In this document: piece by piece, positions 9,073 through 38,056 of the stretch
Layout: each line of letters begins with the position of its first letter
Numbering within the stretch: the first letter of the stretch is position 1
DNA from: Exiguobacterium sp.
GTDB lineage: Bacteria > Bacillota > Bacilli > Exiguobacteriales > Exiguobacteriaceae
Assembly: GCF_020832205.1 (NCBI RefSeq)
Contig: NZ_JAFIFD010000003.1
Coordinates: 62,001-126,000 of the forward strand
DNA length: 64,000 nt
Direction: 5' to 3'
Made by a program: the position numbers and the translations under genes
Notes under the pieces: generated by a model
Seen by the model: the letters and a program-made list of their open reading frames with translations, nothing else
Told to the model about the DNA's origin: nothing
The model's database searches: none

Positions 9073-10365
9073 ATGAAAAGTATCGTCGTGCTGTTGACGA
9101 TCGTCAGTGCGCTCAGCAGTCAAATCTTGCCGCAAATCTTATTTCTCGCCGTCATGGCGCTCGGTGACGGGGTGGAGCGCTTGATCCCGTTCATGATCTT
9201 TTATGTCTCCAGCATGTCAGGATTGTTGGTGTGGATGTATGTGATCGGTCGTGCCGGCTCAAAACGTACTTTTTTGATGGCGCTCGCCGTGTTGGCGCTC
9301 GGTCTCTGTTGCTGGTTTTTACCGTTTTCTTGGGGAATCGAAGTGAGTGCGTTTCTCGTCGGGGTCGGATCGATTGGAGTTGGGACGATTTGGACGACAA
9401 TCTTGTCCCAATTGAAAGAGGGTTCTCCGCAAAGTGATGGGGGCAGCTCCCTTCCGCTCGTCGTCATGCTCATCACATGGATCGCATTGTTTTCATACAC
9501 GCTCACACGCTCGTACGATTTCGCGGTCTTGTTGTTTTTAGTCAGCCTCATCTTGCCATTGTCGTTCATAAGAAAGCTACCGCTCACGCGCGAAGCGACG
9601 TGGACGTTCTCGACGACCTTGTTTCTTCGGGCGTTTCTCGTCGTCACCGTCTTCACGCTCGCAAGCCGGCTCGTCAGTTTACTGGAAGGGATGCGCGGCT
9701 ACCTCGAAATCTTCATCTTGACGCTGCTTCTCGTCAGCTACGTCGTCTGGCTCATGGTGCAACGAAAGACGCGGGATTATGTGACGGCGAAATCGACACG
9801 ACAAGTCCAGTTTTTGGCGTATGCGGTCGGCCTGTTCGGCGGATGGACGTTGATTGGGGCCGTCTTCACGAGTCTGGCCTTATATTCGTCCAACGTTCTT
9901 CTCTTTTACGTATTCGTGCCGTTTTTACTTGGCGTCATCGGCTGGATTCTCTTCGGACGGATGCTGCCCGGTGTGAAGCATCCTTATATGTCGTTACTCG
10001 TCTCATCCCTCTGCTTCTTTCTTGGATTTTGGCATCCAATCGCATTCCTTCCAGTCTTGTTCGTGAGCGGCTACGTCCAGACGATGTATTCGAGCGTCGG
10101 ACATATGCACCTGTATACAGCGTACGGTCAGAACAAGGAGTTCGCCGCCCTCGTCATGCAGCTATGGAAGAAGTTTGGGATGGTCGTCGCGCAAGTATCG
10201 CTCATGCTCGGCATCCTCGCTTACGGACTGACCGTCGGGAAAACCGTCAATGCCGACTTGTCGTTCGCGATCCCTGAAAGTTGGATGGTTGGAGTGCTCG
10301 CGGTGACGTGGACGGTAAACGTCGCCGTCATCACAGTCTATTGGCGTCAAATCGTTCGCAACTAA
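9073..10365 (+). CDS. hypothetical 12-helix membrane protein (MFS-like)
   Basis: 430 residues with about 12 hydrophobic segments and a short charged mid-loop (VQRKTRDYVTAKSTRQVQ) dividing two six-helix halves, the general layout of a major facilitator. The canonical MFS loop 2-3 motif is only weakly visible (YVIGRAGSKRTF), so a substrate cannot be named. ATG 9073 follows GGAGGGCGG. The gene stands alone between the divergent hemAT gene and rpoE; B. subtilis has acdA at this place, so it looks like a lineage-specific insertion in the block. Confidence 0.65.
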   Translation: MKSIVVLLTIVSALSSQILPQILFLAVMALGDGVERLIPFMIFYVSSMSGLLVWMYVIGRAGSKRTFLMALAVLALGLCCWFLPFSWGIEVSAFLVGVGSIGVGTIWTTILSQLKEGSPQSDGGSSLPLVVMLITWIALFSYTLTRSYDFAVLLFLVSLILPLSFIRKLPLTREATWTFSTTLFLRAFLVVTVFTLASRLVSLLEGMRGYLEIFILTLLLVSYVVWLMVQRKTRDYVTAKSTRQVQFLAYAVGLFGGWTLIGAVFTSLALYSSNVLLFYVFVPFLLGVIGWILFGRMLPGVKHPYMSLLVSSLCFFLGFWHPIAFLPVLFVSGYVQTMYSSVGHMHLYTAYGQNKEFAALVMQLWKKFGMVVAQVSLMLGILAYGLTVGKTVNADLSFAIPESWMVGVLAVTWTVNVAVITVYWRQIVRN

Positions 10366-15625: not shown

Positions 15626-16957
15626 ATGAAACGAAACTTGTTGCTTGTCATGCTCATTTTACTAGGGTTGGGGACGTGGTACTATATGGCGGGGGCGGCT
15701 CCGACGACGAAAAAAGTACCAGCGCCTTCTTTCACTGGCAAGTATCCGGGCCTCTATTTGACGGTCGAAAGTGAACAGACGAGGCACTATACGATGGCAG
15801 TGTCTGTCCCAAAGACCGACCATGACGCCTTGAACGAGACGCTCGACACTTTCATTAAGGAAAAAAAAGAAGGATTTCAAGAACGCCTTACGGTGAGTCG
15901 TGGACAACAAGGCCACTTGAACATCCAAACCGATTCATTTAAGACGAGTGAATCGTCTTACACGCTTGTGTTGCAAACGTATGCGTTCACAGGAGGCGCG
16001 AACGGTCAATCGACGGTCGACGTGTTTCACTTAGATATCGAGGCGGGGAAATTTCTCGAATGGGGAGATGTTTTCCACGATGACGAAGACACGCTAACGT
16101 GGTTCCAGACGACCGTGGCCGAGCAGTTACATAGAAACGAATACGTGTTTGAAGAACTAGTCGAAGAGGCACTGTCTGACCCGAAGACGACGAAATGGAT
16201 GCTCACATCGTCCGGGCTGACGGTATGGTTCGACGAATATGAAGTGGCAGCCGGAGCGGCGGGTGTTGTGGAAGTGAACATCCCGCTTGAAGATGTCACC
16301 CCATACGTGTCGAAACAAATTAGCGAGCAATCAGAAGACAACATCGAAGAGACGACGGTCACGCCATCCCGACCTCCGCTCGACCCGGACGGAAAGTACG
16401 TCGCGTTGACGTTCGATGACGGTCCGCATCCGACGGTGACGCCGAAAGTGCTCGAAGCACTCGAAGCGTACGATGCGCGCGCGACGTTTTTCATGCTTGG
16501 CAGCCAAATCGAATTTTATCCGGATGTGGCAAAAGCGGTCGCTTCGGCAGGGCATGAGCTGGCGAACCATACGGAGCACCATCCGAACTTGGCCCAATTG
16601 CCGCTTGACGGGATTGAAGCCGAGCTCGAGAGCGTGGATCAGCGAATCGAACAGCTCGTCGGCGAACGGGCTAAACTCGTCCGTCCACCGTATGGGGCTA
16701 AAAATGAAGAGGTAGAACGAGTCATTGAAATGCGTGGCCAGACTCTGGCCTTATGGACGGTCGATTCGCTCGATTGGAGTCACCGCAACCCGTCCGAGAT
16801 GCATAAGCTGATTGTAGACGGGGTCCACCCGAGTGCGGTCGTGCTCATGCACGACATCCACGCCTCGACGGCGGAAGGACTGCCGCGCGTCCTTGCCACG
16901 CTCGAACGTGAAGGGTACGAGTTCGTGACGATGAGCGAGTTGTTAACGATTCAATGA
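15626..16957 (+). CDS. PdaC-like polysaccharide deacetylase with DUF3298-type domain
   Basis: Exported, membrane-tethered enzyme expected to deacetylate peptidoglycan or another envelope glycan. 443 residues: an N-terminal signal anchor (about 4-24), a DUF4163/DUF3298-type domain (about 45-225) as in B. subtilis PdaC, then a NodB domain (about 250-440). All five NodB motifs are visible: TFDDGPHP, the metal-binding HELANHTEHHP, RPPYGA, LWTVDSLDW and VLMHDIH. Both metal His and the catalytic Asp and His are present. ATG 15626 follows TAGGAGAGAG. It converges on the interrupted oxidoreductase gene, with a structured non-coding cassette between them. Confidence 0.9.
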   Translation: MKRNLLLVMLILLGLGTWYYMAGAAPTTKKVPAPSFTGKYPGLYLTVESEQTRHYTMAVSVPKTDHDALNETLDTFIKEKKEGFQERLTVSRGQQGHLNIQTDSFKTSESSYTLVLQTYAFTGGANGQSTVDVFHLDIEAGKFLEWGDVFHDDEDTLTWFQTTVAEQLHRNEYVFEELVEEALSDPKTTKWMLTSSGLTVWFDEYEVAAGAAGVVEVNIPLEDVTPYVSKQISEQSEDNIEETTVTPSRPPLDPDGKYVALTFDDGPHPTVTPKVLEALEAYDARATFFMLGSQIEFYPDVAKAVASAGHELANHTEHHPNLAQLPLDGIEAELESVDQRIEQLVGERAKLVRPPYGAKNEEVERVIEMRGQTLALWTVDSLDWSHRNPSEMHKLIVDGVHPSAVVLMHDIHASTAEGLPRVLATLEREGYEFVTMSELLTIQ

Positions 16958-17069: not shown

Positions 17070-17131
17070 CCATATTAATTGGTTAAAGCCAGTATATTTC
17101 GGAATGACGCGCACGTACAGCGCCGCCCGAG

Positions 17132-17229
17132 GGCACGCCGACTCCTGGGGAATCAGCGGGCAAGGCGAGACCCAGCAGCGATGCGGTCGCGATGCGGCTC
17201 GCTGCCCGCCCCCAGGAAAGCGGCGTGCC
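17132..17229. repeat. structured interspersed repeat, copy A
   Basis: A 98-bp imperfect hairpin. From outside inwards: GGCACGCCG/CGGCGTGCC, CCTGGGG/CCCCAGG, GCGGGCA/TGCCCGC and GCGAG/CTCGC, with the conserved loop segments GAGACCCAGCAGCG and GCGATGCGGCTC. A related copy lies at 36980-37075 with compensatory changes in two stems, so base pairing is conserved rather than sequence alone. No coding function. Confidence 0.8.
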
Positions 17230-17257
17230 GGACAGGGCGGCTCGAAGGGCGATGAAG

Positions 17258-17297
17258 GCAGAGGAGCGTCATCCCATCCGGGACGGCGCTCCTCTGC
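17258..17297. terminator. GC-rich hairpin downstream of repeat A
   Basis: An 11-bp perfect stem GCAGAGGAGCG / CGCTCCTCTGC with inner TCCC/GGGA pairing. It has only a weak T-rich tail (TTAAAATC), so termination is possible but unproven. Confidence 0.5.
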
Positions 17298-17349
17298 TTA
17301 AAATCATTTAAAGTTTTTCAGTGCCATCAGATCGCTGCGGGCATTTCGT

Positions 17350-17493
17350 TTACTTCACGTGTTGATCTTTAATCGGGAACCAACCGGCACGTGTCGTGAT
17401 GGCGTTCCAAAGCGGGGCTGGGACAGCGAGCTCGGCTTGTTTGTTCAAGTCGAGCTCGGTCTCGATCTCGTCTTCACGGCCGTCTTTCACTTT
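17350..17493 (-). pseudogene. in-frame C-terminal remnant of the Old Yellow Enzyme gene
   Basis: Downstream of the TAA at 17494-17496 the same frame continues for 47 codons to a second TAA at 17350-17352. It reads KVKDGREDEIETEL, then VPAPLWNAIT, then AGWFPIKDQ. This is the normal C-terminus of YqiG-type flavin oxidoreductases, which have the same Lys-Val-x-x-Gly-Arg-Glu and Pro-x-Pro-Leu-Trp pattern. With it the protein would have about 371 residues, the family length. One substitution therefore separates the two parts. Confidence 0.8.
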
Positions 17494-18465
17494 TTAAAGC
17501 CAGTCCGGATCGATGATGAGCTCGCGGCCGAGCGCGGCGAGGTCGACAACGTCGAGGGCGTCTTCGACTTGGCCCGGGCGATGCAGCTGTCCGACTCCGA
17601 TGAGCGGGACGGCACCGTTGATACGCTTGGCGATTCGATCGATGGACCGCTCCGTCACATTTTCATTTCGCATCGAGGCGGTGTTGAAGTTCCAAAGCGA
17701 GGCGTGGATGTAGTCGAGCCCTTCCTCGAGCAACATGTCGATCAATACGTCGCTATCATCGAGCGTGATGCCCGGTTCCTCGACTTCTTCAGGCGAGAAG
17801 CGGTAGCCGACGAGGAAGTTCTCCGCGCCTTCCGCTGCCCGTTTCACCGCCCGGATGACTTCGCGCGGGAACGTGAGACGCCCAAAGACATCTCCGCCGA
17901 AGCGGTCGTCGCGTCGGTTCGAATGCGGTGAGAAGAACTGTTGAATCAAGTACGTGTTCGCCCCGTGAATCTCGACACCGTCAAATCCGGCCTCGATCGC
18001 ACGTCGTGTCGCGTCACCGAACGCTGCGATGATTGCCTCGACTTCCTCGGTCTCGAGTGCACGTGGTGTGACGGCTCCTTCACGGACCGGTGCGACCGCG
18101 CTCGCACTCACAGGTTGCTCGTTCGGGACGAGATTCGGCGGTGACATGCGACCGGCGTGGAAGATTTGTAAGATGGCTTTCGAGCCTTCCGCTTGCAGGC
18201 TTTCGGCGAGTTGGCGCAGACCCGGGATGAACTTGTCATCGTTCACGCCGAACGCGTTCGGGAAACCTTTGCCGTCTTCGGTTACGTAAGCGCACGCCGT
18301 GATGGCGAGCCCGACGTTTTTCGCGCGTTTCCGGTAATAGGCGAGTTCGTGTTCCGATACTTCCCCTGTCGGCTGTGATGAATAATGGGTCATCGGTGCG
18401 AGTACGAGCCGGTTTGGCAGCTCGACACCGTTTTTGAAATGGAAAGGTTGTAGCATGCGTTGCAT
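17494..18465 (-). CDS. NADH:flavin oxidoreductase (Old Yellow Enzyme, YqiG-like), truncated by a nonsense codon
   Basis: FMN-dependent ene-reductase of the OYE family, a TIM barrel. The visible 323 residues hold the N-terminal PMTHYSS FMN segment, the active-site HGANTYLIQQFFSPHSNRRDDRFGG (substrate His and Asn, Arg), and GVGQLHRPG plus ALGRELIIDPDW near the end of the barrel. Translation stops at TAA right after DPDWL, about 48 residues early. Those last residues normally help shape the FMN site, so activity is doubtful. ATG 18465 is chosen because GGAGGAG precedes it; an upstream TTG is less likely. Monocistronic, divergent from glpD. Confidence 0.8.
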   Translation of the reverse strand: MQRMLQPFHFKNGVELPNRLVLAPMTHYSSQPTGEVSEHELAYYRKRAKNVGLAITACAYVTEDGKGFPNAFGVNDDKFIPGLRQLAESLQAEGSKAILQIFHAGRMSPPNLVPNEQPVSASAVAPVREGAVTPRALETEEVEAIIAAFGDATRRAIEAGFDGVEIHGANTYLIQQFFSPHSNRRDDRFGGDVFGRLTFPREVIRAVKRAAEGAENFLVGYRFSPEEVEEPGITLDDSDVLIDMLLEEGLDYIHASLWNFNTASMRNENVTERSIDRIAKRINGAVPLIGVGQLHRPGQVEDALDVVDLAALGRELIIDPDWL

Positions 18466-37926: not shown

Positions 37927-38056
37927 AAGGATCCTCCTCAAATGTTCTTCTTCCATACCATACCCAACTTTGCACGTGATTAAGACGATACCCAAAAAAA
38001 CGAGCATATGGTACGATGGGGGTGTTGATTTTTAGACATTCAGAGGGGGTTTCAAC

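Follow-up and report, generated by a model that had tools for sequence, protein, structure and literature searches.

A probable recent nonsense allele of the sole Old Yellow Enzyme gene in an Exiguobacterium strain

Introduction

Old Yellow Enzymes (OYEs) carry a conserved active-site stretch, HGANTY, whose His, Asn and Tyr residues have a catalytic role. Among solved structures, the top sequence match to the gene described here is 3L5A (2.5e-53), a probable NADH-dependent flavin oxidoreductase of the OYE family from Staphylococcus aureus. In class II OYEs, a Cys at one defined position is given as a class rule in the pertinent part of PMC12046209. Where they treat in-frame stops in bacteria, Belinky et al. 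2021 (PMC7918605) argue that these are often tolerated by read-through for short times; the tolerated stops are described there as mostly short-lived, with dN/dS below 1.

Here, we analyze an OYE gene with a single inner stop, located in a 64-kb stretch of DNA (the window) from a 2.78 Mb genome in 57 contigs, the near relatives of which are Exiguobacterium. The gene, the only one for an OYE in the strain, is with a probability of roughly 0.68 a recent nonsense allele of a known enzyme.

Results

Gene layout and family membership

An ATG at 18465 opens a minus-strand frame of 323 residues, which meets a TAA at codon 324 and continues through 47 codons to another TAA. Directly upstream of the ATG lies AAGGAGGAG, which, read by eye, resembles a ribosome-binding site. 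The features are:

17350..18465, minus strand: OYE-family gene (PF00724), whole frame, interrupted by a single stop, from the reading frame, Pfam and the congener comparison
17497..18465, minus strand: open part of 323 residues, the predicted shortened product, from the reading frame and a Pfam match to residues 5–323
17494..17496, minus strand: premature TAA, codon 324, a sense codon in 18/18 congeners
17350..17493, minus strand: conserved tail of 47 codons, closed by the ancestral TAA (17350–17352), from the reading frame, congeners and branch counts

The sequence-only reading had placed an in-frame TAA at 17494–17496 in an OYE gene, followed by 47 family-like codons containing KVKDGRE, VPAPLWNA and GWFPIKDQ up to a second stop; the minus-strand reading frame bears out the former, and the tail with its three motifs was reproduced. 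The open part matches PF00724 with an E-value of 4.3e-75 and 253.6 bits, well above the curated cut-off of 27, and the HGANTY stretch is present, with H167, N170 and Y172 invariant in 41/41 aligned relatives. The C-terminal part is incomplete compared with orthologues, the window copy stopping at 324 rather than running to 371 residues. PF00724 occurs once in the genome, in the window gene, so that there is no second OYE to stand in.

The DNA 3' of the gene has features of its own. Segment 15497–17349 is missing from the matching place in the nearest relative (G005) and in E. alkaliphilum (G004), where about 85 bases are found. It contains a gene for a polysaccharide deacetylase with a DUF3298 domain (15626–16957), for which a full-length match was found only in G013 (65%), adjoining that genome's own OYE gene. 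Directly 3' of the OYE gene, 17112–17302 is a dispersed repeat with 11 genome matches including itself; the best other copy is 95% identical over about 146 bases and most others are ~80% over ~80 bases, and the repeat has no Rfam match.

Relatives at codon 324

The gene was found once in each of 19 Exiguobacterium genomes (E <= 0.001), and the 18 besides the window genome have no inner stop in it. Codon 324 is a sense codon in all 18 (Glu in 15, Asp in two, Val in one), and each encodes 371 residues, in agreement with the full length of about 371 residues deduced earlier. In 18/18 congeners, all open at codon 324, the orthologue has a C-terminus that the window tail matches, so that its 47 codons are more than a chance continuation of the frame.

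We also compared 80 relatives from named genomes, a set that overlaps partly with the 18 congeneric genomes. In 76 the frame stays open through the tail and extends to query position 365 or beyond; the other four are each interrupted at an unrelated site (positions 11, 16, 214 and 246 as numbered in the inner-stop check). Orthologues ending at this stop, which the sequence-only reading had named as a refutation, numbered 0/18 among congeners and 0/80 among the named relatives. Relative to its relatives, therefore, the OYE gene has a premature stop, as expected of a nonsense allele.

Age of the stop and selection

Between the window and G005, pN/pS is 0.0245/0.413 in the body of the gene and 0.0363/0.391 in the tail. 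Changes on the window branch were polarised with G004 as outgroup and G005 as nearest relative. The OYE body acquired 47 synonymous and 9 non-synonymous changes, compared with 1165 and 172 in 45 other window ORFs pooled (p=0.54), some of which are probably shadow frames that inflate the non-synonymous count of the pool. Relaxed selection on the window branch was looked for in the OYE body and not found, the comparison with the 45 ORFs indicating no relaxed constraint yet, and the G005 branch did not differ significantly from the window branch (p=0.19).

On the same branch the tail acquired 7 synonymous and no non-synonymous changes, codon 369 being left out because it had changed more than once and differs in all three genomes; residue 369 of the window copy is unique to it. 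In a neutral simulation, 7 synonymous tail changes should bring ~21 non-synonymous ones, and no more than 18%, 30% or 41% of the branch can have been free of constraint, depending on whether codon 369 is counted as 0, 1 or 2 changes. Such a record in the tail after divergence from G005 suggests that: (i) the stop is young, (ii) it is a sequence error, or (iii) it is tolerated, the tail still being used. The tail counts uphold the proposal that the event is very recent.

Alternative explanations

Three causes had been put forward: a recent nonsense mutation, which fits best; a sequence error, which is less likely; and read-through, which is unsupported. A sequence or assembly error, in which case the gene would be intact in the living strain with a sense codon at 324, is unlikely but deserves to be taken seriously. 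The TAA is known from a single genome and the OYE gene has no signs of decay; a base-calling error would give the same picture. Against this, when the 64 kb were compared with G005 and G004, we accepted an inner stop in no real window gene other than the OYE gene, and no frameshift was upheld, so that the assembly looks clean here. Other flagged frames in the window were judged by position to be shadow frames or end effects, and a candidate frameshift near 37990 was rejected, because the additional N-terminal stretch of G005 has no open frame in G004. We infer that the nonsense allele is probably real.

Read-through of the stop, with the 371-residue protein still made, perhaps at a low level, is very improbable. 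Purifying selection acted on the tail over most of the branch, and continued full-length synthesis would also leave a conserved tail, but three observations leave this explanation unsupported: (i) read-through is recognised by a conserved stop, and the TAA at 324 is common to 0/18 congeners; (ii) the 46 tRNA genes found in the draft contigs all have ordinary anticodons (46/46), none being a suppressor that reads UAA, UAG or UGA; and (iii) RNA-level constraint beyond the stop, sought via synonymous sites, was not found, amino-acid-invariant codons varying synonymously at 6/6 positions directly after the stop, 25/32 in the tail and 219/242 in the body. The window has no Rfam elements either.

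We consider it equally doubtful that the 323-residue form works as a shorter enzyme: its Pfam domain match is nearly complete and it retains HGANTY, but 0/76 relatives open through the tail end near 324, and the part lost is conserved and predicted to be ordered. That a leaky ochre codon 324 keeps the only OYE low, with the 323- and 371-residue forms both made from a short-lived natural dosage allele, is hardly credible.

Background of inner stops

Single inner stops are rare yet ordinary in the OYE family. In a 298-genome sample around G305, searched with a C-terminally trimmed query, 133 genomes had a match and two of these had inner stops (G132 and G575, the latter counted by flag alone). 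Recurrent breakage of the family was considered and rejected: among the matches listed, 23 besides the window were stop-flagged, of which 22 were natural end stops overrun by the alignment and one was a true inner stop (G132, Jeotgalibacillus soli). The glpD control gave three flagged and no true inner stops among the matches listed.

The 80 relatives include four true inner stops, one each and at different places, in Jeotgalibacillus soli (L031), Salsuginibacillus kocurii (L045), Bacillus thermotolerans (L057) and Alkalihalophilus pseudofirmus OF4 (L065). Taken alone, the stop-flag control of 4/80 OYE genes vs 11/246 neighbours, most of the latter being start extensions or shadow frames as judged from frame and position, leaves a hint of an excess of inner stops in OYE genes; an excess in the family is not established.

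E. alkaliphilum (G004), a sister of the window genome, also carries a lone inner stop, located in a different gene, the orthologue of window 9073–10365. There (L160–L163), an in-frame stop at residue 244 interrupts an otherwise full-length 430-residue protein that has no Pfam match. An inner stop in the same stretch of a sister genome suggests that such alleles are normal background, and one young nonsense allele among roughly 60 neighbouring genes is nothing unusual. Rather than a new mechanism, the window stop seems to be an ordinary break of very recent date, or else a sequence error.

Predicted effect of losing the tail

Modelling of the intact orthologue from E. alkaliphilum (mean pLDDT 94) gives a tail that is ordered to about residue 360. 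The stop falls within helix 322–327, and helix 350–358 is removed with the surrounding arm. In a conservation alignment that took in 41 of the 76 open relatives, the lost position K325 is invariant (41/41), and L346, P349, G361 and W362 are each kept in at least 90%. As the tail is both conserved and, in the model, ordered, the truncation probably removes a structural part of the protein.

Under the preferred reading, a recent nonsense mutation would have struck the strain's only OYE gene, of the FMN-dependent ene-reductase type, and translation would halt in helix 322–327, dropping the last 48 residues. The 323-residue product would be expected to be unstable or weak, and the strain may have lost most or all OYE activity.

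Discussion

The gene should be annotated as a likely nonsense-disrupted OYE, and the consequences beyond annotation are small. Because it is the only OYE gene of the genome, the strain provides a natural experiment on whether an OYE is needed in Exiguobacterium at all.

With Bacillus YqjM/NamA, a class II OYE, the window gene shares the superfamily and the barrel (1z41, Z 40.8, model residues 1–333). The NamA/YqjM equivalog NF010047 (NCBIfam) is nevertheless not matched, the window scoring 174.9 and the E. alkaliphilum orthologue 183.6 against a cut-off of 431, and the window-type OYE has Thr26 where class II OYEs have Cys, as matched by eye. 3l5a is the top structure by fold as well, ranking first also by Foldseek; it superimposes on the intact-orthologue model with Z 48.9 and rmsd 2.3 over 359 residues at 32% identity, and the alignment covers model residues 1–364. 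The C-terminus of 3L5A is intact, whereas the window copy ends 48 residues earlier. The cases of Belinky et al. (PMC7918605), as far as the relevant part of that study describes them, were filtered for stops common to orthologues, whereas the window stop is unshared; what the window gene has in common with them is a single stop in a gene that is otherwise constrained.
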